Positions 3,127-30,151 of a stretch of 64,000 nt of DNA are shown here, piece after piece. The stretch covers positions 2,914,001 to 2,978,000 of the forward strand of contig NC_070565.1 of the NCBI RefSeq assembly GCF_026914185.1, written 5' to 3'. Source of the stretch: Puccinia triticina. Its lineage: Eukaryota; Basidiomycota; Pucciniomycetes; Pucciniales; Pucciniaceae. A program made the position numbers and the translations under genes. Position 1 is the stretch's first letter, and every line of letters begins with the position of its first letter. Below the pieces are notes generated by a model. The model saw nothing but the letters and a program-made list of their open reading frames with translations, was not told the origin of the DNA and ran no database searches.

Positions 3127-4500
3127 CTAAAATTCTAGTCCAAAGGAACAGAATCTGCGGAGCATATCTTCCAGAGTTTGGATCATGCGTTCAGCTAACC
3201 CATCCGTCTGCGGGTGATAGGCTGTGGAGAAGGCTAGTTTAGTTCCTAACATGTCATGTAGGTTGCGCCAGAATTCCGACGTGAATTTTGGATCCCGGTC
3301 ACTGATAATGATTTTTGGGATCCCTACATCAGACATTACTCTGTTCCAGAATAACAGCGCCACCTCCATCGCGGTGTCGTCTTTGTGATTGGGGATAAAT
3401 CGTGCTCTTTTGGAGAGACGGTCCACTATCACTAAAACCGAGTTAAAGGAGTAAGCGCCCGCAGGTGGGAGTCCAGTCACAAAGTCCATGTTGATAATCT
3501 CCCACTGGCGAGTAGGCTCCTTGATTTTTTGCAGGAGGCCAAACCTTTTACCCGTTTGTTTGTTGGATTTTTGGCACACATCGCAAGACTGGATATATGT
3601 CTGGGCTTCTTTTAGCCAATTTGGCCACCACACCGTATTCTTTATTCTTTCTAATGTTCTTTCTTCCGACAGATGTCCTGAATTCACATTATCATGACAT
3701 TCTGCTAGGATATCCCGTATCTGTGTCTTGTCACTGAGTACCAGAATACTAGAATGTTTATGCCTGTAGTATAATAATCCGTCTAACAGGGTGAATCTAC
3801 CTAATTTGTAGTGCTGCGATAAGTCCGAATGCAAGCTAGCAATTAACTCTGGGGGACTGTTGTCATTCTTAAGTATTTCTACTAATGTCAACAAGTCTGC
3901 ATTACTATTGTAACTACTTCTTACTAGGTCATAAAAGGCTTCATCTAAATCGCAAACGTGAATTCCCAGGATGGGAAAGATGTCCTCATCCTCCGGATCA
4001 TATGCGGGGTTGTCCGGAGTGTTTGGAAGTGCCCACCTGCTCAATCCATCGGCGTTTCTATGCTTTTTGCCTTCTTTATGAACAATAGTCATATGCCCGC
4101 GGTACTGCTGAACTGCTATTTGCCATCGGAGCATGTGCCTATTTGGGGTCTTCATGTTCATCAGAGTTCTTACTGCCATGCAATCGGTTATGACTACAAA
4201 GTAAGAACCATCTAAGTAGTAATGCAATTTTTCTAACGCCCATACTAAAGCAAGACACTCCATTTGACTTGCTCCGTACCGCTTCTCGGACTCTTTGATC
4301 TGACGAGAGATAAAAAGAATTGGTTTTTCCACTAACTGGTCGTCCTCCATGAATTCTTGATGAAGAGCCGCCCCTAACCCATCCATACACGCATCGATAT
4401 ACAGAATAAAGGGTTTATCATAATCTGGTTGAGCTAATACTGGCGCGGTAGTTAGTAATCCTTTTAGTTCTTCGTAGTTTTGTACTCTTTCGTATGTCAT
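3127..4500 (-). pseudogene. Gypsy RNase H and integrase segment of Pol
   Basis: The N-terminal part is the RNase H domain ([17 protein letters not shown], then ADGLSRW). The HHCC zinc-binding region ([11 protein letters not shown], then CDVCQKSN) and the integrase core follow, with the three acidic residues visible in [17 protein letters not shown] and GLAERMIQ. The segment is in frame with the reverse transcriptase part upstream, separated only by a TAG at 4531-4533, and is closed by a second TAG at 3127. It belongs to the same polyprotein as its neighbours. Confidence 0.92.
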
Positions 4501-10836: not shown

Positions 10837-11944
10837 TTTGGCACACTCCTATAACAGAGTGTGCTTTGGCACACTCCTATAACAGAGTGTGCTTTGGCAC
10901 ACTCCTATAACAGAGTGTGCTTTGGCACACTCCTATAACAGAGTGTGCTTTGGCACACTCCTATAACAGAGTGTGCTTTGGCACACTCCTATAACAGAGT
11001 GTGCTTTGGCACACTCCTGTAACAGAGTGTGCTTTGGCACACTCCTGTAACAGAGTGTGCTTTGGCACACTCCTGTAACAGAGTGTGCTTTGGCACACTC
11101 CTATAACAGAGTGTGCTTTGGCACACTCCTGTAACAGAGTGTGCTTTGGCACACTCCTGTAACAGAGTGTGCTTTGGCACACTCCTGTAACAGAGTGTGC
11201 TTTGGCACACTCCTGTAACAGAGTGTGCTTTGGCACACTCCTGTAACAGAGTGTGCTTTGGCACACTCCTGTAACAGAGTGTTCTTTGGCACACTCCTAT
11301 TACGGAGTGTGCTTTGGCACACTCCTATTACGGAGTGTGCTTTGGCACACTCCTATTACGGAGTGTGCTTTGGCACACTCCTATTACGGAGTGTGCTTTG
11401 GCACACTCCTATTACGGAGTGTGCTTTGGCACACTCCTATTACGGAGTGTGCTTTGGCACACTCCTATTACGGAGTGTGCTTTGGCACACTCCTATTACG
11501 GAGTGTGCTTTGGCACACTCCTATTACGGAGTGTGCTTTGGCACACTCCTATTACGGAGTGTGCTTTGGCACACTCCTATTACGGAGTGTGCTTTGGCAC
11601 ACTCCTATTACGGAGTGTGCTTTGGCACACTCCTATTACGGAGTGTGCTTTGGCACACTCCCATTACGGAGTGTTCTTTGGCACACTCCTATTATGGAGT
11701 GTGCTTTGGCACACTCCTATCATGGAGTGTGCTTTGGAACACTCCTATTACGGAGTGTGCTTTGGAACACTCCTATTACGGAGTGCCCTTTGGAACACTC
11801 CTATTACGGAGTGTGCTTTGGCACACTCCTATCTATTACGGAGTGTGCTTTGGCACACTCCTATCTATTACGGAGTGTGCTTTGGCACACTCCTATCTAT
11901 TACGGAGTGTGCTTTGGCACAGTCCTATCTATTACAGAGTGTGC
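10837..11944 (+). repeat. Left minisatellite array: 16 + 19 units of 28 bp, 4 units of 32 bp
   Basis: The unit starts TTTGGCACACTCCTAT and ends GAGTGTGC. Sixteen 28-bp units of the AACAGAG type (10837-11284) are followed by nineteen of the TACGGAG type (11285-11816), then four 32-bp units with an extra CTAT (11817-11944). Within a unit GCACACTCC pairs with GGAGTGTGC, so each unit is a hairpin. The long open frames across it (repeating LLRSVLWHTPITECALAHS) are a by-product of repetition without stops. Confidence 0.95.
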
Positions 11945-12112
11945 GTTGGGATACAGGGTATCCTGGATATCCAACTCAGGATATCTGGTAGTGGTTGAAG
12001 TGGCCAAAAAACAATATTCAGTACCTCCAGAACTGGAGCAATATTTTTTTAATCCTAAACAAGCCCTACATCAAGATCAAAGCTGACAACCTGAAACAGG
12101 ATCCAACTATAT

Positions 12113-12496
12113 TTGATTCTCTATGTTGAAAATCATGATGATGAAGTGTGTCAAAGAATCAACTCAAACTCACTTTCCCATACACCAGAAAAATGTCTTG
12201 TGGAAGATTTCTTTGGAAAATCCAAAAAGAAACCATCAAACCAGTTGTTGGTGTGGAAGCTCAAGAATTGGCCACCAGAAGCTGACTTTGAATCTGAATT
12301 CAAACCACTTTTTGACAACTTCCGTAATTCACCAGGTGTTCTGGCAGCACACTGTCCCAAGAATGCCAATGCACCTGACCAAGTCACTTTCTTTTCTCCA
12401 GGAAGCCTAGTATTATTTTACCATCCTTTTGGCTCCTGCTCACATGCTGATTTGGACTTTTTATGTAGTGGCCCAAAGGTTAGCATATATAGCTAA
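12113..12496 (+). pseudogene. Fragment resembling a KDM3/JMJD1-type JmjC protein, left arm
   Basis: A 127-codon open frame runs without an obvious ATG. It contains VWKLKNWPPEADFESEF and, after a gap, LAAHCPKNANAPD, which resembles the stretch around LKLKDWPP and the following LN-LA segment in KDM3/JMJD1-family histone demethylases. The residues expected between those two blocks are missing, so the fragment is internally deleted. The catalytic Fe(II) site is not included. It is repeated inverted at 12794-13177. Family assignment is from motif resemblance only. Confidence 0.45.
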
Positions 12497-12529
12497 GAAC
12501 AGGCAATTGCTTCTCAGCGCCCAACCAGC

Positions 12530-12790
12530 AACAAAGAGCTATACAATCTTTGACTTGCTTCCTTACGCAACACTATTGAACGCATATTTGGATGTGTTAA
12601 GAGAAATCTTTGCATCCTTTCATCCACACCAGAGTTGGACCTCAAGAAGCAAATACGCCTTATATACACTCTCTGCATGCTTTGGAATTTCATTTGCAAG
12701 CATGAAGGCCATGACCCCATTTTGGATGATTCAGAAGAGGAGGATACCAACACTGACACTGAAGCCATTGTGATCCAACTTTCACAGTTC
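12530..12790 (+). pseudogene. C-terminal remnant of a PIF/Harbinger-like DDE transposase
   Basis: One frame reads NKELYNL, stop (TGA), LASLRNTIERIFGCVKRN, then LCILSSTPELDLKKQIRLIY and TLCMLWNFICKHEGHD. The pattern NxxELxNLRHxSLRNxIERxFGxxKRRxxIL followed by a Y-x-LC-xLxNFI helix is typical of the C-terminal part of DDE_Tnp_4 (Harbinger-type) transposases. The stop sits where an Arg is expected (CGA to TGA). The DDE catalytic core is absent. It occupies the exact centre of the foldback. Confidence 0.65.
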
Positions 12791-12793
12791 TTC

Positions 12794-13177
12794 TTAGCTA
12801 TATATACTAACCTTTGGGCCACTACATAAAAATTCCAAATCAGCATGTGAGCAGGAGCCAAAAGGATGGTAAAATAATACTAGGATTCCTGGAGAAAAGA
12901 AAGTGACTTGGTCAGGTGCATTGGCATTCTTGGGAAAGTGTGCTGCCAGAACACCTGGTGAATTAGGGAAGTTGTCAAAAAGTGGTTTGAATTCAGATTC
13001 AAAGTCAGCTTCTGGTGGCCAATTCTTGAGCTTCCACACCAACAACTGGTTTGATGGTTTCTTTTTGGATTTTCCAAAGAAATCTTCCACAAGACATTTT
13101 TCTGGTGTATGGGAAAGTGAGTTTGAGTTGATTCTTTGACACACTTCATCATCATGATTTTCAACATAGAGAATCAA
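12794..13177 (-). pseudogene. Fragment resembling a KDM3/JMJD1-type JmjC protein, right arm
   Basis: This is the inverted duplicate of the left-arm fragment at 12113-12496, also 127 codons. It differs by only a handful of residues (for example NFPNS for NFRNS, AAHF for AAHC, PGIL for PGSL). The near-identity shows that the two arms are kept similar or duplicated recently. Confidence 0.45.
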
Positions 13178-13350
13178 ATATAGTTGGATCCTGTTTCAGG
13201 TTGTCAGCTTTGATCTTGATGTAGGGCTTGTTTAGGATTAAAAAAATATTGCTCCAGTTCTGGAGGTACTGAATATTGTTTTTTGGCCACTTCAACCACT
13301 ACCAGATATCCTGAGTTGGATATCCAGTAAGAAATCTAGGATACCCTGTT

Positions 13351-14245
13351 AGGAGTGTGCCAAAGCACACTCCGTAATAGATAGGAGTGTGCCAAAGCAC
13401 ACTCCGTAATAGATAGGAGTGTGCCAAAGCACACTCCGTAATAGATAGGAGTGTGCCAAAGCACACTCCGTAATAGATAGGAGTGTGCCAAAGCACACTC
13501 CGTAATAGATAGGAGTGTGCCAAAGCACACTCCGTAATAGATAGGAGTGTGCCAAAGCACACTCCGTAATAGATAGGAGTGTGCCAAAGCACACTCCGTA
13601 ATAGATAGGAGTGTGCCAAAGCACACTCCGTAATAGATAGGAGTGTGCCAAAGCACACTCCGTAATAGATAGGAGTGTGCCAAAGCACACTCCGTAATAG
13701 ATAGGAGTGTGCCAAAGCACACTCCGTAATAGATAGGAGTGTGCCAAAGCACACTCCGTAATAGATAGGAGTGTGCCAAAGCACACTCCGTAATAGATAG
13801 GAGTGTGCCAAAGCACACTCCGTAATAGATAGGAGTGTGCCAAAGCACACTCCGTAATAGATAGGAGTGTGCCAAAGCACACTCCGTAATAGATAGGAGT
13901 GTGCCAAAGCACACTCCGTAATAGATAGGAGTGTGCCAAAGCACACTCCGTAATAGATAGGAGTGTGCCAAAGCACACTCCGTAATAGATAGGAGTGTGC
14001 CAAAGCACACTCCGTAATAGATAGGAGTGTGCCAAAGCACACTCCGTAATAGATAGGAGTGTGCCAAAGCACACTCCGTAATAGATAGGAGTGTGCCAAA
14101 GCACACTCCGTAATAGATAGGAGTGTGCCAAAGCACACTCCGTAATAGATAGGAGTGTGCCAAAGCACACTCCGTAATAGATAGGAGTGTGCCAAAGCAC
14201 ACTACGTAATATATAGGAGTGTTCCAAAGCACACTCCGTAATAGG
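13351..14245 (-). repeat. Right minisatellite array: about 28 units of 32 bp, inverted
   Basis: This is the same unit as the left array read on the opposite strand, with an exact 32-bp period (AGGAGTGTGCCAAAGC followed by ACACTCCGTAATAGAT). Twenty-seven full units run 13351-14214 and a degenerate one ends near 14245. Units are almost invariant, unlike the mixed left array. Confidence 0.95.
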
Positions 14246-15177
14246 AGTGTTCCAACTACCTCATGATCCTCTGTCTCTTTCCAGCAGGTCTTGTTGTACC
14301 TTCTGATGCCAACGTACAAGGAGACTTGGCAGCCCACGGGATTTTTTGGCCGCCGGTAGCTACTTGGTCCAGTAGCTAGTCAAAGACTAACTCAAAGTAG
14401 AGATACTATGATTCATTTCTTTATTTATAGCAATGCAATGTTATGGGGGGCCATGCCCACCCCCAAGAACCTATTGAATTATATGTGTGTGCTCTGACCC
14501 TTGGTCAAGCGCCAGTACCAAAAGCCCCGCCCACGTGAGTCCCATGGGCCCTGCAGTTGCTTTTGACTCATCAGAGTTCCGCAGAGCATCCACCTGCCAT
14601 CAGTCACCAGCATGATCCAATTGATTTGGATCCCAATGGATCCGGCATACATTTTTGGTGCCAGATCAAATAGCTGCGGGTTGCTGCTGAGCGCCTCCAG
14701 GGACCCGGGTCAAATATCCGCAGGTCGCCGCTCAGTGCCCCAAGGGCACCGGATCAACTATCCGCTGGCAGCGGCTGAGCGGTCCCCAACCTTGCCATAT
14801 CCAGCAACCAGAACGCTCCAGCAGCGTGGTCCTCATTCCCATGGGACGCCCAAGGGATAATCAAGGGCGTGTTGCTGTGGCGCGCCAATCCCATTTCCGC
14901 AACAGGTGCGTGATCAGATTGGGCAACGGGGATGTTTTGTGACGCCTCAGGTGCGTCACAGTGGTGCACCCCTGGGACATGTCAAGATTGAGTGCCACCA
15001 TTGTGGTCATTGACTTGCAGGGTCCCAGGGGCGCAACCCAATTGCCCTCCGGGCACTCCATCGGCCTTGGGGTGTACATTTCAAAAAAATTGCACTGCAA
15101 TTTTTGCGCAAGTTCAAAAACTTTTGAAAAATATCTCAAAAACACATTTATAATTGGCACCTAAAACAATGTTTGAC
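14246..15177. other. Gene-free stretch with a 3-copy ~47-bp repeat
   Basis: At 14660-14800 a unit beginning (G/A)GATCAAATA and containing CGCTGAGCG is repeated three times with divergence. Upstream, 14340-14655 looks like decayed retroelement sequence (ATTTTTGGTGCCAG near 14651 resembles an LTR/primer-site junction), but no second LTR was found. No coding sequence is recognised. Confidence 0.4.
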
Positions 15178-16931: not shown

Positions 16932-18158
16932 TTCTGAAACAAGACGAGAACGCTGTCAGTTGCATGGGGATTGACAGGTCAAAGAGTATTTTTCTACTCA
17001 CATCCGAATAAGTCAAGTCCCATGTCCTCATCCTCCTCTTCCTCGGGTTCTGGTTCCTTGGCGGCGGCGGCAGCAGGGGCGGCGGCAGCAGCAGCAGCAG
17101 GGGCAGCGGCAGCGGCGAAAGCGTCGGCTGAATTTTTCAATAACATAGGGTCAGTAGACGCAGGGGATCGTGGCAAGGATGGGGAGACTTACGGTTTTCG
17201 AGGTAGTCTTTGGCTTTCTGTGCCCCTTCGAACATGTAATCTGTGGTGAGAGCAATGGCGATGAGGTTCTTGTAGCTGTTGACAAGGCTGTGGGGGATGG
17301 ATGCGACGGTGGGGTAGTTGATCGCAAGCGAGATGGCGGCAATCGTCTTAATTCCACTCAAGAATTGGTCGATCAAAGTCTGCTCGTCGATGTCCAATAC
17401 GCTGGGAGAGAAGACGTTTCCGTTGTCATAGATCGAAACAACGGTCATCCCGTATGTGAAGGGAGAGATCTTCAACAAGTTGAGCAGCGTGGCTTCGGAT
17501 GCTCCAACACGACTTCCGGCAGTGACAATTTTCATGTCAGAGACAATTTCGATCGTACCACGAGCAATCTAAGAATCAGAGGACATGGAAATCAGAATTC
17601 TGCAAAGAGAGACACCTGATCGATTGATGGAAATTTACCTTGGTTGGGATTCCCAAAGCCTGGAAGAAAGAGGTCTTCCCGGGCTCCATACCAGTGTTAC
17701 CGGCAGGGATGTAAACATCCAACGGAGCAAAAGCACCAGCTTTGGCCGGGGCAGCAACCTTGTTTGCAGTGATGATGTTGCGAACATCCTTCAAGTCGCC
17801 ACTGGTGAAAACGAAACCGATGTTTCCTCGGACGAGAGGGAGGATACGCTCGTACTGAGGGTTGTCGGCCAAGATGTTTCGGATGGCACGTCGGACCATG
17901 GTGTTCTTGCCCATCAAGACGGTACCCTTACCACGGAGAGCTTGTCGGATTTGGTGCATCTGGTTGGACCCGACATTGTCAACGTTGACAATGAATGCAG
18001 AGGGGAACTCGGCCATCAAGTCTTTCAACTTGTTGAAGTAGGCCTCTGTCAAAGCGCAGGATCGGATTTCAGCGTCATCATTTCAATAATTGATATTCCG
18101 GACAATTCGACGTAGATTGCAGGATCTTGTTACCTTTGAATTCTCTGGTTTTGCCCAT
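16932..18158 (-). CDS. RPP0: 60S acidic ribosomal protein P0 (uL10)
   Basis: P0 anchors the P1/P2 stalk on the 60S subunit and recruits GTPase translation factors. Exons: 18158-18134, 18045-17639, 17568-17193, 17127-17002, 16933-16932 (311 aa). The start [12 protein letters not shown], the uL10 rRNA-binding domain ([31 protein letters not shown]), the SVLDIDEQ region and the Ala-rich hinge lead to the stalk tail [18 protein letters not shown]. Introns are 88, 70, 65 and 68 nt. The last intron (17001-16934, GTGAGT..TTTCAG) splits the stop codon: T17002 joins AA at 16933-16932 to make TAA. If it is retained, translation adds two residues and ends at TAG 16994. Length and tail match the family. 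Confidence 0.95.
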
Positions 18159-21417: not shown

Positions 21418-21429
21418 CTAGGGAAATTG

Positions 21430-21440
21430 TGGCTGCGCCA
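21430..21440 (-). other. 3'-terminal hairpin of the outer Helitron
   Basis: TGGC-TGC-GCCA on the plus strand, 8 nt from the terminal CTAG. It has the same spacing and loop as the hairpin of the inner Helitron at 21800-21812, which puts both in one family. Confidence 0.65.
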
Positions 21441-21554: not shown

Positions 21555-21787
21555 GGGGGTTTCACAATAAGGAAACCCGGGAACAGCTGCTAAAACTCTG
21601 ACAGATGTAGCCCTAGGCACAGCTACATACAACTGGCCATGGGCAAAGAAAGGGCAATGTAGAAAGAATCCCACATGATATAAAGACTGGCCCTATGAGT
21701 TGCTGATATTCATTACGAATCCACTCACCACTGGGAACTGGAATCTGGAAAAGGAGCAGGCAAACTCCATTTCTGGTTTATATTTAA
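21555..21787 (-). pseudogene. Helitron helicase, C-terminal block
   Basis: Translation gives YKPEMEFACSFSRFQFPV, then FVMNISNS, a stop, and GQSLYHVGFFL, then FAHGQLYVAVPRATSVR. This is the helicase tail pattern FxRxQFPVxxxFAMTINKSQGQS ... FSHGQLYVALSRATS of Helitron PIF1-like helicases. One in-frame stop and several substitutions make it non-functional. It directly continues the block that ends at 24610 once the inner Helitron is removed. Confidence 0.75.
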
Positions 21788-21799
21788 CTAGAGGCCAAG

Positions 21800-21812
21800 G
21801 CGGCTGCGCCGC
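21800..21812 (-). other. 3'-terminal hairpin of the inner Helitron
   Basis: GCGGC-TGC-GCCGC, a perfect 5-bp stem with a 3-nt loop, 8 nt from CTAG at 21788-21791. Confidence 0.75.
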
Positions 21813-22286
21813 TGCAGGGTCTCAAGAGAAATGGTTGTCTTGCTGCACTGGTATACAATTGGAAAAACCACTGGAAAACCAAGAATTACTCCTGGAATCT
21901 CCAAAATTGATCAAAAAAGATTTCCCATCTTGTTTGGTTTCTTATGCAAAAAGTGATACAGTTTGCGGCCATTTTCCTACTAAGCCCTTTGCACACCCCT
22001 TATATTTCATTCTCTGGTGAAACACCATTGCAAATAGTTTATCAGCTCAAATAATATGCAACATTGAAGAATTCCTGAAAGTTTTGGACTATGAGTCTGT
22101 GTGGGTGTGTAACAACAAATTTATATGTGTTAGCAGTCATTTTACTACTAATCCTGCAGGTTACCCCTTATATCTCATTTTAATTTCCCTGTTATAAAAT
22201 AAACAAGAGTGGTATAGGAGCGTATGGGTGATGTTTATGCATGTACGATGAGAAATGAAAAAAGAGGCGCGACGAGTTCTGGTGGA

Positions 22287-22619
22287 CTATTTCAACTGTT
22301 TCCATTTCGACAAGTTCTGGAAAAACGAAGGGGTCTTGAAACCCAGCGATGTAGGATCAAGTGGTTCTAGTGGTGTGAGCTTCAGCCGAAGTTTGTGTGC
22401 TGATTGAACGAGTGCGTCGACTGCTCTGTTTTTCAGTTTTGCAAGGGTGGTGATCATGAATCGCCGCGAAGCGATCGTGAGTTCTATCAATACTGCTCTG
22501 CAGCGAGCCAATAGTTTATCCCGTTGACAAGCGATCCTGTCTTGTACTATCACCAAAACGTTCTGGATAATAGTCGAGGGCGGCTGCTGGCTCGTCTGTC
22601 TTAGCTTGACGGAAATTGA
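22287..22619 (-). other. In-frame open extension downstream of the GEP4 stop
   Basis: After the TAA at 22620-22622 the same frame stays open for 111 codons (LVIVQDRIACQRDKLLARC.. to FFQNLSKWKQLK, stop at 22287). The composition is coding-like (basic, helical). Either the true protein once continued here and TAA is a decay mutation, or a short intron removes the stop; no convincing donor was found. Confidence 0.4.
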
Positions 22620-23807
22620 TTAATATTTCGTCTGGCAGTCTTGTTTAGCTTGTTCGGCCTTCGAGATAACCCGAGCCGCAGAGGACAGGGATTGCTCAAA
22701 TGTCTGGGAAATCCGTTCTGGTGACAAGGTGAGATTGGGAAGCTTTCGTGATGAGGATGGCTCGCTTCCATTCATTGATGAATTTTGATGGGAATATTGT
22801 ATGACGAGTTTCAACGCTCGATTTTCAGCCCATCTCATAAACCGAGTACCCAGTTTCTCTTTCTGCCAGATGTTTTGAGTGAGCACGGAACAAACTGGGT
22901 TCGATTCGCCAGAAGAGGAATTCGAGGAGGATTGATGGGTTTGTAGAAACGCGCGTAAGCGAGAGGCTAAGATGATATCGGTCGTCACTCGATCGCCGAT
23001 GACCATCAACTTGAGGGGTGTCGGATCAGCCCGACTTCGAGAAGGAAGGCGCGGACCGTACATGGATGAGTGTGAGGGATAAATCACAGGAACGAGTCGA
23101 TAGTCAGCGGTAAAGTATTTGTGGATTGCTTTGACGACTTTTTGGCCAGGTTTTTTAGTCTCATGCACCAAGACGGGCACGCCAAGATGACGAGCAACGG
23201 ATTCGGCCTGTAGAAAGGTCAAAAAAGGTTAGAGGCGCAGGAGGATGTCAAGAGAATTCAGCAAAAAAGAGGGACTCGCGTGGATTAGAGACGGATCTTC
23301 AGCCGTTCCCGCAGAGTTGCCAACGAGTAGAACTCCCGAGTTGCCGAATGTGGCAAGGCAGGACTGCCAGGCATGCTGTAATTCTGGAACCAGCTGATCG
23401 TGGTAAGGCTTAGTCTTCGGAGATGACCGCCGATGAACAAACCCATGCCAAGCAAAAAATACCAGGGTTCGGTTAGTTTATGTAACAGTAGAAAAAAAAA
23501 GAAGAAAATGGATCGGCCTGATGACTCAAACAATACAGTTGTCCTTATCAATCACGACGCCCACGTATCCCTTCCGCCTAAGTTCCTTCCAATCGACGCA
23601 CCGTATATCTGATTGATCAAACGGAGACAAAAAAACAGTCTATCAGTAAGTGCAACGGATATTCTCGATATTTCCAGGTGATTTGGAACAGGTTCGAACG
23701 AGGGGAAATGTGTATAGACCTCGCCCATGCAGGGTGGGCAGCAGAGTCCTAGGTGTTGCCAGGCATCTTAGCGATGCGACGATGCCAGTGAGGTTGAGAT
23801 TGGGCAT
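22620..23807 (-). CDS. GEP4: Mitochondrial phosphatidylglycerophosphatase GEP4 (Helitron-borne copy)
   Basis: Gep4 is a HAD-family phosphatase of the mitochondrial inner membrane that converts phosphatidylglycerophosphate to phosphatidylglycerol in cardiolipin synthesis. Exons: 23807-23720, 23608-23532, 23414-23280, 23207-22620 (about 295 aa). The N-terminus MPNLNLTGIVASLRCL matches the family. HAD motif I is VVIDKDNCI, motif II VLLVGNSAGT, the motif III lysine lies in HETKKPGQK and motif IV is MVIGDRVTTD, so catalytic residues are present. Intron 3 (23279-23208) needs a GC donor (CAC|GCGAGT) to keep frame. Donors of introns 1 and 2 (GTCTAT, GTTTGA) are weak. The gene lies wholly inside a Helitron, so it may be an extra copy beginning to decay rather than the resident gene. 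Confidence 0.85.
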
Positions 23808-24609
23808 GGGATCCAGATGGAGAAATTAAAAACGTGAAGACTTCTCCGGGCGTCCAGGTTTGTACAGGCCTGAAATGGGCCTAAGAAACAGAGAGAAGTG
23901 AGTTTCCATGCGCAGGTCTCATCACTTGGGACCCCGGCCACAACGGGTGGACGGCTTCCTGGGGGAGGTTCAGAAACCCCTATTTTGTCTGCTTAGGTGC
24001 AGGGCCCGGGCAACCAAGCTGAGGTGTTCATGGCGATGGTCGTCCTCATGGTGCTGACAACATATTTTGATCCAAGGGTCCTATTGCGAATGCCAAGGGT
24101 GGAAACGCGGCCGCAAAAGCGAGAGATGGAGCACCATTGTGTATAAAAGGAAGGGCTTGATGAACATCAATACCCCCAGGGCGTCCTCTGCCGCTGCACT
24201 TCCAGCGGACGGTTCGTCCCCGCCCCCCTCCGCTGTTGCACGTGCGCAGTCTGAGGGGCTGAAGAGTGGGCCCCCCACGGGTCTGCAGCCTTAGCTGCGG
24301 GCCGGGGGCCTTCACGTCCATCACTTTTGACCCGTGCGCTTGACGCGGGCTGGGTGGTGAGCCTGGGGGCACAGCTTTGCTGATGTTGGAAGGCTGGTAG
24401 AGATTTACTTGTCAATAAAATCCGATTTTTCTTATGTAAAATCCCCCTTTTTTTGTATCCTGGTTTTTGTAGTGGGAAAACCCCACCTGTTTTTTTTTTT
24501 TGGACTTTTGTTGATGGGGAAACCCATGATGTTTTTTTTTCTCATTTTGTATAATTGTAAGGGGGAACCCTTGATATTTTTTTTTGATTTTGGAAAAACT
24601 GTGTCTTGA
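23808..24609. other. Helitron interior upstream of GEP4
   Basis: This includes the presumed GEP4 promoter. 24425-24600 has repeated GGGGAAACCC-like blocks separated by T-rich runs (TTTTTTTTTT) every ~50 bp. No further gene is recognised. Confidence 0.4.
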
Positions 24610-25526
24610 ATAAACTTGGATAGTTATTTGGGTTAAAGCTTTGTCTTTTCCAGTGAATAACTGTCCCTGTCAACACCTTGAGTTGTAGAACCGTCCTTTT
24701 GATGCTGAGAAATAGCAATTTTGTCCCGTTTGCTAATCCATCTTCCAAACATAGATTTTATAAAAGAAAAAAGGGTTGACCAACCTGCATCTCAAGGCAA
24801 TTTTCAGGAAGATTTGGCACATTAATCTTAGTGAGGAATTCCTTGGGCAAAGCTTTTTTGGAAGAATTGGTCATCTGATCCATATAAACTGATATATGGA
24901 GCTCCAAAGGCAAGACTCTGAGGTACTATTTATCAATTTACTCAAAAGCTGGGGGATAAAATTGTCAAAGGGTATCTGAAAAGGGGGAGATGTATAGGCC
25001 CACTGCATAAGTACCATCTAGAGGCAGGAGGAACGATTGAGTGGACTCTGGAGTGATTTAAATGTGGTAATTATTGCATGATTCTTGTAGTATTCTCTCA
25101 GAAACTGTTCAGAAAAGTTTGGGTCCTGGCAAGTCAAATCTCTGTAGATGAACTTGATCATATCTGAGCTGAGCGGATGGATTGAGGTGTTTGTGCAAAA
25201 ATTCACAAACCGCAAAGGAATCTGGTTGATCAGATCCCTTTGAATGATGCCTTCACCAAGATTTAGCTGTAATTCATTGAATTCAACTGCACCTGGTTTG
25301 ACTTAGTGATTGCCAGATCCTAACAGTCGGATGTTTGCCACAGGTGAAACTTTGTTACGCTCTGCCATAGAGAAGAGTTTAACATGAAAATTTCATTGGG
25401 CAATCAAGTTCCCCCCCTTGAAAACTGGAAGTGTCTGACAAAAATCTCCACTGAATTATCACCTTGATGCCACCAAAAGGAATATTTAGATTCTTCAAGT
25501 CCCAAAAAAACCTATCTAAATCTTTG
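24610..25526 (-). pseudogene. Helitron helicase, middle block
   Basis: Reading leftward it starts DLDRFFWDLKNLNIPFGG (helicase motif region after WDxIS), then passes LIxFIYRDL, YYKNHAIITTF, PKEFLTKINVPNLPENCLEM, QVGQPFFLL, a stop, NLCLEDGLANGTKLLFL and VLTGTVIHWKRQSF. These follow the order seen in Helitron helicases (LIDFVYPDL, YFKNRAILT, LKVGxPVMLLRNL, GLxNGTRL, VLTG). Many stops and frameshifts show decay. The right edge is the Copia target site CTTTG. Confidence 0.75.
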
Positions 25527-25696: not shown

Positions 25697-28600
25697 ATGG
25701 TAAACACTCGTCGAGACAAAACTGAACTTCAAGGACCTCTACCCCCTCCAACTCGAGCAAAAAGGCCAAAGCAGATGAAAGCCTACAAAGCTCTACTTGC
25801 TCTTCCTCCACTACCACCGTCTCCCCCGCCGGAATTGGACACTCCAGCGGCTACCCAAGTACAGCGAAACAAGGACCCTATCTCTTCTGAAACGCATTCA
25901 TCCTCCGCGTTCAAACTCAAAAGTCAAATCAACGGCAATTTTCCGTACATACCAAATCACCTTTTTAAACCTCTACTCGTCCAGACCCAGGTACCTACAG
26001 ATCAAAGCTTGACCCTAGACGATTTATCCGTCTTATTTTCCCAACTCAAACTATCCAATTTCCAAGCCTCATTTTCTACGATGTCTTCTTCGAATTCGGG
26101 AGCCATTGAGATCACGCCCCGCGCAAAATTCTTATCAGAACCAATCAAGTACAAAGATTCAATTGAAATGCTCCTGGCAGACGGTTCGAATTTTAATCAA
26201 TGGAAAAGAGCCCTGAATCGGACCATTCGTTTAACACTTGGACATACAAATTTTTTTGATACTTCGGACGGTCGCCCGGTTCTAACCGCACAGGAATCTG
26301 CTTCTTTGTTATTTTTAATCCAAGTTACTGTACACGATGAACTTTCTTCAATGGCGGATTCGGCAGCAAACGCTATCGAGGCCTTTGAAGCAATTCAGAC
26401 AAACTTCCAAGGTTCCCTTTGATTTTGCCAGATCGATCTGCTCGACAAAGTTTTTGAACTCAAGGCTGCTGATCCCCCGGCCGACCTTGCGCAACTCCAG
26501 ACAAGATTCAACAATCTCTTCCAACTCTTCTCTGATCTTAAGGAGGTTGGAGTCACGCTGAGCCCAGTCCTTGAGTCACTTTTTGTCCAGATTATCATCC
26601 CAGCACCAATGACGATGACGCGCTCTCAATTCTATCAAACAATCTGTCTTCAACTTGGCAACAAAACAGATGCTACCGCTCGCAAGGTACAAACAATAAT
26701 AAACTCGATGTACGGGGAGGCAGCCCGTTTTGATACCCAGGGCTCGGCGCAGGGTACCATCTTTCGCACTTATCAAGCTCCGCAGCCACCAATTTCACGA
26801 GGGAACCAGGTCAACCAACACCTACCATCAGGATCAAATAGACCTTCACGACATCCCCCGACTCGACCAAACAACAATCAAGCTCCGCCAAATCAACGGA
26901 AGATGCCGACAGGTGACGACGTTATTGCGGCAATCAGCAATATTCGCCGCGGTAATCCTGCTCCTCCTCCGCATCTATTGGCACGGAACAACTCGTGTGG
27001 TTATTGTGGCGGCAAGGGACACTGGCGCTCAAACTGCCCAGTGTTACGTGAGGATGCACACCTCCCGCCGCCAATCCCATCTGGTCGCCCCGCTTCCGGT
27101 TATGCCCAACCACCTGCACCCCAATCTTCGGCGAACATTCGATCAATCACCGGACCAACAAACGGAGGGGCGGGGGTTGATGGCGCTGTTGTGGACTCTG
27201 GGGCGACCACTCACGTGAGCGGATCTTTCCTTTATTTTTCTTCCATGATCCCGCTCAAACAAGAATTGAAGCTAAATCTGGCTTCAAATGATGCATTGAT
27301 GATTGCGACTCATAGGGGGAACCTGCGAATATCGAGTGGAGATGGGACCTGGGAGATTCCGGCAGTCCTTTACAGCCGGCAAATGATGGGAACCATTCTT
27401 AGCTTGGGACAGCTTCTAGATTCCGGTTTCATCCCATCTTTCTCTCAAAACAACGATCTTTTTCTTCATTTGCCCTCATGTATTATATTTGCCCCTTACC
27501 GAAACAGAACCTGGACCATTGGCTCTATAATTGCGACATCTCCAACAGTGCAGGCGGTGACTTGATCGCAATCTACCATTAATCAAGACCAATCCCATTC
27601 GACTCCCCACACTCCTCAAGAACCACTCTCCGAGTCATATTACTGGCACTGTAAACTCGGACACGTCTCAGATGATGTTGTAAAATCATTTCTCAAGCTA
27701 TATGTCCCTTCCTTCAATCTCAAGTCTTGGTCACCATTTGTATGTGAATCCTGTCGGACATCCAAAAGCGAGAGGCGTCGAGCAAAAATTCCGGAAATAA
27801 TCCCCCGGGATTCCAAGCTCGCTCTCCTGGTCTCCGACGTTCTGGGACCTTTAGATCCGGACATCCACGGAAACCGCTATATCCTCACCGCTCGAGATCA
27901 TCACACCACCTATTCCTTCGCCATTCCAATGAAGACCAGGGCTGAAGTTGTCCCACATCTTATTTCTCTCATACGAACATTGAAGAATCGATTTGGTTTG
28001 GCACCAAAATTTTTACGATGCGACAATGCTCAGGAATACCACTCAATAAACTTGTCTTCAGCTGCATCGGAACTCGGCACTCAAATCATCTTTTCATCTC
28101 CGTACACCCCCGAACAAAACGGTGAGGCGGAACGTCTGAACAGAACTCTGGGCGACATGGCCCGGACAATGCTCCTTCAGTCTAAACTCCCTCAAAACCT
28201 CTGGTCTTATGCATATACATGCGCATGCTGGATCGCGAATCAAATACCCAACTCAAGAATAAAAGATTTGACACCACTGAAACTCTGGTCTGACAAGGAC
28301 CCACATCCTTCATCAATTTTTCCATTTGGGACACGTGCTTCAGTTCATATTCCAAAAGAAAAACGACGGAAGCTCGACGTTCGAGGTTGGATCGGTCATC
28401 TCATTGGCTATCAATCAGATGGCCGAGGCTGGATATTTTGGAATCCATCAACATCAAAAACGTACGTCTCGGAATGTGCTACATTCCTTGACTTCCAGGG
28501 CAAACCGTTGGTTTCCAATCCTATCTCGCACCAACACATTCGGTCAGCCCTTATTCTTGGCCAAGTCCCGACAGAGAAGATTTGTGAAGATCAAGATACC

Positions 28601-30151
28601 ATGATCGAGAAAATCCCGACCAGCCATGATATGGAGATCCCCAATAACCTCAAACAAGCATTATCATCGCCCAGAGCCAAATACTGGCGCAACGCATGCC
28701 TGGCGGAATGGAGACAACTCGAGGACATTGATACGTGGGAGGTGGAGGATCGTGCCAAGAAATATTCGATCGGCACTAGGTTTGTTTTTGATTTGAAACG
28801 TAATTCAGATGGAAAAATTGAGAAACCCAAGGCCCGTTTTGTAGTTCGTGGATTTAAACAACGTCTGGGTCGCGACGTCAAGTCCACATTTGCACCAACG
28901 GCATTGCTATCCTTGCTCCGCCTTCTGTTTGCATTGGCTATCAAGTTCAAATGGTCCATTAACGCTTTCGACATCACGGGAGCTTTCGTACACAGTCCAA
29001 TTGATGAGCTCATCTACGTTGATCCCCCGGTAGAACTGTTCCCTCACTTGAAAGGGAAGGTCCTGAGACTCAAGAAAGCTTTATACGGCACCCGGCAAGC
29101 CAGCCGCTGCTGGTGGAAACATTTCAAATCACTTCTAGAACAATGGGAATTCACTTGCGACGAGGTAGAAGAATGTCTTTATAAATTCCAGAATGGAGGC
29201 CACATAGTCATTGTATGGATCCACGTCGATGATGGAATTGTCTTCAGTAACTCTGCTGCTCATGTCCAAATACTACGTGAGAACCTGGAAAAATCACTTT
29301 GAGTAAAATGGTTTGACAAACCCGACAAGATAGTTGGGTTAAAAATTGAAACGTCAGACAACAAATTGACATTGTCCCAACCGTTATTGACGGATCAAGT
29401 CTTGATGAAATATGATCAACAATTCAACTTTTGTCATTACACCACCACGACACCAATGATTTCATCAGATCTTGTGTCATCAGAATCGGAGTCCATCAAT
29501 TCGACCGACTTCCAATCTTATATCGGGTACCTCAATTATCTTGCGCTGGGTACCCATCCAGATATCTTGTACTCTGTTAACTACCTGGCACGTTTCAGCT
29601 CAAAACCAAACAACACACACTGGAACGCATTGCATCACCTGATGCGATACATCAAGACAACGAGGAACAAAAAACTGATCTTCAAACCCGACGATACAAT
29701 ACTCACGACATGGACAGATGCTAGTTGGGGAGGAGAATTTCAATGATCCACCTCAGGATTTATCATCAAACTGTTTGGCTGTCCCATTGCCTGGGGATCC
29801 AGGAGACAGAAGACTGTTGCAAAGTCGACTTGCGGCGCAGAGTTCATTGCGTTAGGCGGCGCGGTAGAGTTCAAGTTATTCATCCTTCACATACTTCAAT
29901 CAATAGTTCCAAATGCCAAATGCAAACTACTTTGTGATAACAAGGCCGCTGTTCTTGTAGCGGACGATAATGGTTCAAGATCAAGTCTCAAAAGCATTGA
30001 AAGAAAATTCTTTTTCACCAACGACACAATCCGACAACACAAGATTGACATTGACTGGGTACCAACCAAACAAAACTTGGCAGACTTCCTCACAAAAGTC
30101 TTAGGCGCTCATCAACATCAAGATCTCATTTCTCAAGTCCCTGTTTCCTAA
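25697..30151 (+). pseudogene. Copia Gag-Pol polyprotein with four in-frame TGA codons
   Basis: A single frame of 1,485 codons starts ATGGTAAACACTCG. Order: Gag (to ~26950), CCHC knuckle CGYCGGKGHWRSNC, protease AVVDSGATTHVSG, integrase with HCKLGHVSDD..CESCRTSK and acidic residues in VSDVLGPLD, LRCDNAQEY and EQNGEAERLNRTL, RT with NAFDITGAFVHSP, KALYGTRQAS and IHVDDGIVF, and RNase H starting SWGGEFQ, stop, STSGF. Stops are TGA at 26420, 27563, 29300 and 29744. At 29744 an Arg is usual in the family, consistent with CGA to TGA changes. No frameshift is needed anywhere, and the final TAA is at 30149. Confidence 0.92.

Follow-up and report, generated by a model that had tools for sequence, protein, structure and literature searches.

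Here, we analysed a stretch of 64,000 nucleotides (hereafter, the window) from chromosome 8A of Puccinia triticina (wheat leaf rust), Pt15 haplotype A, in which a degenerate Helitron helicase copy is interrupted by a second, non-autonomous Helitron that carries a copy of the gene GEP4 with its introns. The inner Helitron is a mosaic of three sequences: a 5′ module from one Helitron subfamily (B), the captured GEP4 stretch, and a 3′ module from another subfamily (A), all of which are also found elsewhere in the same genome. All genomic data come from this one haplotype of one isolate; the genome searched comprises 122,823,596 bases in 18 gapless contigs, with 7,485,535 bases in the contig that contains the window, and in the genome search for pieces of the element, 40 of 1,277 candidates were scored. 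An earlier note on this DNA, made from its letters alone, had proposed that a complete GEP4 gene was carried by a Helitron inserted in the helicase of another, and its particular claims are taken up where our results bear on them. The coordinates of all features of the locus are collected in Table 1.

The ends of the inner element are defined by a large family of siblings. It starts with TCCAAGTTTATT at 24620, 11 bp outside position 24609, where the earlier note had placed it; the TC at 24609 is internal to the Helitron, and TCCAAGTTTAT is a conserved terminus of sibling elements and not helicase sequence. By contrast, the 3′ limit at 21788, with its hairpin and CTCTAG, stands as described. 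The family 5′ word TCCAAGTTTATTAAAG occurs in 522 exact copies genome-wide, 521 of which are preceded by A, and the family 3′ end in 525 exact copies, followed by T in 521 cases, with no copies of the reversed patterns of either word. In a mismatch-tolerant count limited to 20 fetched loci, T follows all 28 of the 3′ ends and A precedes 24 of the 26 5′ ends, the other two having G in front. One of these two was read directly, in locus L016, where two Helitrons stand head to tail (position 4432/4433), the CTAG of one abutting the TCC of the next with no gap. Given that this 5′ end directly follows the CTAG of another Helitron, we argue that the A normally found in front belongs to the target rather than to the element. 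Thus, with 521 of 522 5′ ends preceded by A and 521 of 525 3′ ends followed by T, insertion is of the canonical A^T type and not of the T^T type previously suggested for this locus. The window element itself is flanked by A and T, and shows the canonical ends and site of Helitron1 (5′ TC, 3′ CTRR with a hairpin, A^T site); a T^T-inserting Helitron2/Helentron is ruled out by the A^T site together with the TC and CTAG ends. The fold energy of the inner 3′ hairpin is not better than that of shuffled sequences (z −0.37) and that of the outer element's hairpin is modestly so (z −1.92), such that the support for the hairpin is the conservation of its word and not its energy. Altogether, about 520 elements in the genome share these ends, which the earlier note had suggested searching for and whose absence elsewhere would have refuted its proposal; a second copy of the GEP4-bearing Helitron was not found among the candidates scored.

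The target of the insertion was compared with other helicase-like loci. A search with the upstream flank returned 14 loci including the window itself, and of the 13 others, 8 have matches to both flanks, in agreement with the earlier view that helicase-like sequence lies on both sides of the insert. Seven of these eight were read base by base (L041 was left out). They have 40 bases between the outer anchors, as read directly in four and by gap-free extension in three, and 21 bases between two anchor motifs; the window with the A^T boundary also has 21, whereas a boundary at 24609 would give 32 (motif distances counted by eye). The seven loci are uninterrupted homologues of the target, with no leftover bases at the site, and they bear out the claim that no target sequence was duplicated. 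The outer helicase copy is degenerate, with an in-frame stop downstream of the insertion site and 4 bases upstream of it that are extra relative to the homologues. The in-frame rejoining of the helicase across the insert that had been reported (‘PSL-FKYKPEMEF’) depended on the wrong boundary and is rejected. A plausible 3′ end of the outer element itself lies at 21418, and one other locus matches it over 44 bp that finish at the same base. Open reading frames (ORFs) of a Copia-like retrotransposon, recognised by eye at 25697-29302, adjoin the outer helicase and may have truncated it.

The mosaic structure of the inner Helitron is apparent from comparison of its parts with their relatives. The three subfamily B loci that match the 5′ module (L010, L011 and L012) diverge from the window Helitron beyond the B/GEP4 join; after 780 bp, the B module gives way directly to GEP4, the B interior and 3′ end being missing. 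Over the first 450 bp, the similarity between the two subfamilies is about 70%, and over the last 29 bp it is 93-97%, as judged from the 10 of 15 A copies in which both ends were located. The captured stretch extends from 33 bp before the ATG to 86 bp after the resident-type stop, and the only other match to the gene among the scored candidates is C6:1921389-1923026. At the B/GEP4 join, a single T is common to the neighbouring source, and at the GEP4/A join, TTT (22201-22203) is common to the GEP4 source and the A module. Part of an oxoprolinase-type gene (PF01968) is additionally present in subfamily B; it scores above the Pfam cut-off at two of the three B loci in the genome search and below it as a single peptide, and a resident oxoprolinase-type gene lies at C7:3861949-3862978; this fragment indicates that capture is recurrent in this Helitron family. 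Two further candidates were rejected. L010 as a second chimera was dropped, with B sequence resuming 5 kb on, a 4-base overlap and Copia-like ORFs in between, which we read as a nested retrotransposon; and a Sec10-like fragment in L028, below the Pfam cut-off, is not claimed as a capture.

Conceivably, such a mosaic could have been assembled at the target by separate nested insertions and deletions within the old helicase, without the unit ever moving as one Helitron, all the more so as nested and head-to-tail Helitrons are present in this genome. However, the inner Helitron is bounded by a proper 5′ end on one side and a proper 3′ end on the other, both abutting a single A^T site; no such ends delimit the GEP4 stretch within it, and the site in the uninterrupted homologues is clean. 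All of this makes assembly in place very improbable.

The probable source of the captured stretch, on another chromosome, is the resident GEP4 gene, the second locus that the earlier note had recommended looking for. It has an open frame with Ser87 and no early stop, is 97.7% identical to the captured stretch, and encodes a spliced protein of 406 amino acids, which matches PF09419 (GEP4/mitochondrial PGP phosphatase) at 116.5 bits; the captured copy, read as far as its stop, scores 107.8 bits. The closest database match of the resident protein, P0001, differs from it at a single position, sharing M with the captured copy at residue 168; P0001 was derived from an ENA contig of 1,730 bases, which may be a transcript, with ENA as the sole source listed. 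The resident gene adjoins an SGF29-like ORF, which falls below the Pfam cut-off, the rest of that gene being recognised by eye. The genome search with PF09419 scored one resident exon (3 candidates) and has no bearing on distant GEP4 copies. The PF09419 match and the three introns shared with the C6 locus uphold the earlier identification of an intron-containing GEP4 inside the insert and its capture as DNA, and rule out capture through mRNA; the earlier placement of the Helitron within an older helicase copy also stands. The earlier note had left undecided whether the resident gene was trapped or an extra copy was acquired: an extra copy it is, the intact-frame gene with Ser87 on C6 being at odds with a trapped resident.

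By contrast, the description of the captured gene as complete, with all HAD motifs, does not hold. Its coding sequence differs from that of the resident at 25 of 1,221 bases; 14 differences are silent and 11 are changing, one of the latter being the in-frame TAA at 22622-22620 in exon 4. Residue 87, the Ser/Thr position of HAD motif II, is Gly in the captured copy, and Ser in the resident and in 37 of 37 aligned homologues (P0003-P0039, out of 59 matches, 20 weaker ones being left out). Residue 28 is likewise Gly in the captured copy, compared with V or I in all 37, and residue 100 is H, where 34 of the 37 have Q. The GC-AG intron 3 has lost the last exonic G at its donor. Given the early stop and the changed active-site residue, we predict that the captured copy is non-functional. 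At residues 276 and 332, it agrees with 2 and 4, respectively, of 6 other Puccinia sequences (P0003-P0008) against the resident, suggesting that the capture may predate those changes in the resident gene.

Table 1. Positions of the inner Helitron, its captured GEP4 copy and the surrounding helicase in the window
Feature	Positions	Strand	Basis
Non-autonomous Helitron, 2,833 bp	21788..24620	minus	start TCCAAGTTTATT, end CTCTAG, A and T flanks; ends common to sibling loci
Helitron 5′ terminus	24605..24620	minus	one base off the family word
5′ module, Helitron subfamily B	23841..24620	minus	96-97% identical to L010, L011, L012
Captured GEP4 stretch, four exons and three introns	22201..23840	minus	97.7% identical to C6:1921389-1923026
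GEP4 exon 1	23720..23807	minus	model by comparison with resident
GEP4 exon 2, HAD motif I	23532..23608	minus	model by comparison with resident
GEP4 exon 3, with Gly at motif-II position 87 and ending at an altered GC-type splice donor	23280..23414	minus	comparison, alignment
GEP4 exon 4 as in resident, with internal stop	22287..23207	minus	comparison with resident
In-frame TAA, codon 296 of 406	22620..22622	minus	comparison with resident
75-nt intron of public model PtA15_8A268	22596..22670	minus	coding in P0001
3′ module, Helitron subfamily A	21788..22203	minus	96-99% identical to at least 15 further copies
Helitron 3′ terminus: short hairpin, 8 nt, CTAG	21788..21815	minus	525 exact genome copies, T after 521
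Degenerate outer helicase, upstream part	24621..25525	minus	flank matches
Degenerate outer helicase, downstream part, with in-frame stop	21555..21787	minus	flank matches
Probable 3′ end of outer element	21418..21440	minus	CTAG then T; 44-bp match elsewhere with same last base

Taken together, these observations make it highly probable that the locus harbours a non-autonomous Helitron inserted in a degenerate helicase copy, in which GEP4 was copied as DNA, likely by template switching during break repair, and that the copy is non-functional. Under this scenario, a Helitron would have suffered a break, and its repair would have copied the GEP4 locus on C6 and a second Helitron, with the templates switched at the 1-nt and 3-nt matches as in filler DNA synthesis. 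The resulting mosaic Helitron would then have been moved by a RepHel protein made elsewhere, and the GEP4 copy, with only 33 bp of its own upstream sequence, would have drifted after capture.

The principal alternative for the origin of the mosaic is end bypass, whereby a B-type Helitron located upstream of a GEP4 copy would have failed to terminate at its own 3′ end and would have used that of an A-type Helitron on the far side of the gene, carrying the gene along. Such a route is reported to be borne out by an active reconstructed bat Helitron (PMC5148889), and it would account for the single 5′ end and single 3′ end of the window element. The C6 locus is, indeed, not free of Helitrons: a sensitive search detected, at L009:8574, the diverged 5′ end of a Helitron that runs in the same direction and starts 2.5 kb downstream of the captured stretch; repeats resembling the interior of subfamily A (about 73%) come after it. 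However, this sole 5′ end found at C6 is on the wrong side of GEP4. On C6, neither border of the captured stretch coincides with a Helitron end; the 4.4 kb read upstream of GEP4 contains no 5′ word at up to 3 mismatches, and the 10 kb of the locus contain neither a 3′ word at up to 6 mismatches nor any other piece of the window Helitron matching at E 1e-5. Furthermore, the B interior and 3′ end are missing from the window Helitron. This absence, along with that of a 5′ end upstream of GEP4 in the part of C6 read, favours break repair, for which short matches of the kind observed suffice, over end bypass, which we regard as unlikely.

Several observations nevertheless weigh against the reconstruction by break repair of a copy that then decayed. 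The diverged Helitron close to the resident GEP4 is one of these. The joins are another, the 1-nt and 3-nt matches being no more than what end joining or chance gives, and with only one such mosaic in the genome, repair is not separable from later recombination between elements. As for the mobilising enzyme, no RepHel gene with the same ends was found, as judged from the 1.5-kb flanks of loci L029-L042, none of which contains the 3′ word at up to 5 mismatches. With regard to the state of the captured gene, the 75-nt intron of the public model would bypass the TAA; the ratio of changing to silent substitution rates between the captured and resident copies (dN/dS) is about 0.25, which is not what neutral drift on both branches would give; and the 38 differences across 1,637 aligned columns are clustered, with only 2 of them in one stretch of 560 columns. 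As few differences were obtained in 0 of 500 shuffles, for a stretch length that was chosen after looking at the data, and the longest difference-free run is 318 columns (p 0.0125). The clustering and the dN/dS value are not what a dead copy in simple neutral drift would show; the clustering would be accounted for by ectopic gene conversion (window 22204-23840).

The same features invite the view that the captured copy is an expressed gene, functional or encoding a pseudo-enzyme, that is under selection. The 14 silent against 11 changing differences and the nearly invariant 560-column stretch are compatible with this possibility, as is the public gene model PtA15_8A268, which encodes 381 amino acids with the residues of the captured copy and splices out the stop, although the stretch that it removes has counterparts in Puccinia homologues. 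On the other hand, Ser87 and V28 are lost, the stop and the altered splice donor are in place, and the copy took along hardly any upstream sequence. Moreover, a low dN/dS can stem from constraint on the resident branch, the silent changes not being assignable to either branch. Such an expressed gene under selection appears improbable, somewhat more so than end bypass.

A possible cause of the break is suggested by locus L022 (C5:3989000-3998999), where a subfamily A Helitron contains, at element positions 1682-2439, an element of 758 bp that has nearly perfect inverted repeats (about 60 bp) and an 8-bp target duplication, TTATTTTA. The A tail of the window Helitron starts, at its join with GEP4, within 1-2 nt of the site at which L022 has the TTATTTTA duplication. 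It is conceivable, if doubtful, that excision of an inverted-repeat element of this kind broke a Helitron at this point, and that the repair copied GEP4 and then the 5′ module of a second Helitron in one event. This coincidence is a single case, noticed afterwards in AT-rich DNA, and offers only a lead.

The case described here is a genuine instance of gene capture by a Helitron, documented with unusual completeness and of a kind that is already known. The closest precedent is ZmCDA3 in the maize element Hel-BSSS53-z1C1, in which a whole host gene with an identified donor was already recognised in a Helitron (PMC1657028). That element has the same TC and CTAG ends and AT site, lacks a helicase of its own, and contains a copied gene whose donor is still in the genome, as in the case of GEP4. 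However, ZmCDA3 is reported to have an intact coding sequence, whereas the captured GEP4 is interrupted by an early stop and has lost a motif residue, and the rust element, in a fungal host, differs further in joining two Helitron subfamilies around the gene (PMC1657028). Among basidiomycetes, the HELPO1 Helitrons of Pleurotus ostreatus likewise insert at AT, have T[C/G] and CTRR ends with a hairpin, and carry cargo genes; their cargo is described as lacking copies outside the elements, whereas the source of the rust cargo was identified on C6 (PMC4289320). In the insect element Sfru_Hel1A, which acquired its cargo stepwise, sequences captured internally share a few bases with their neighbours at the joins and are interpreted, as here, as filler DNA, but the junctions there span 2-13 bp and the cargo consists of sequence pieces, compared with matches of 1 and 3 nt around an entire gene in the rust element (PMC6544945). 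FoHeli elements of Fusarium, of the Helitron2 type, are also fungal rolling-circle elements but have non-canonical ends and insertion sites, unlike the canonical ends and A^T site found here (PMC5148889). The end bypass and filler-DNA models of capture are covered in PMC5148889, PMC6544945 and PMC4289320, and gene capture in plants is reviewed in PMC13317346. Helitrons are reported to make up 2.6% (3.2 Mb) of haplotype A of P. triticina (PMC12210899). A literature search, with most subscription journals outside its reach, brought up no title that concerned GEP4 or Helitrons capturing host genes in rusts.

Given that all three source sequences persist in one gapless genome, this locus allows end bypass and break repair to be compared at the level of individual bases. 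The data do not support a working mobile housekeeping gene. The locus also presents an annotation hazard, as a broken mobile copy of GEP4 has entered the public gene set as PtA15_8A268. Elsewhere in the window, long open frames of one short repeated peptide, derived from minisatellite arrays, occupy positions 11219-14379, and an ORF on the minus strand at 17576-18082 resembles, by eye, ribosomal protein P0.
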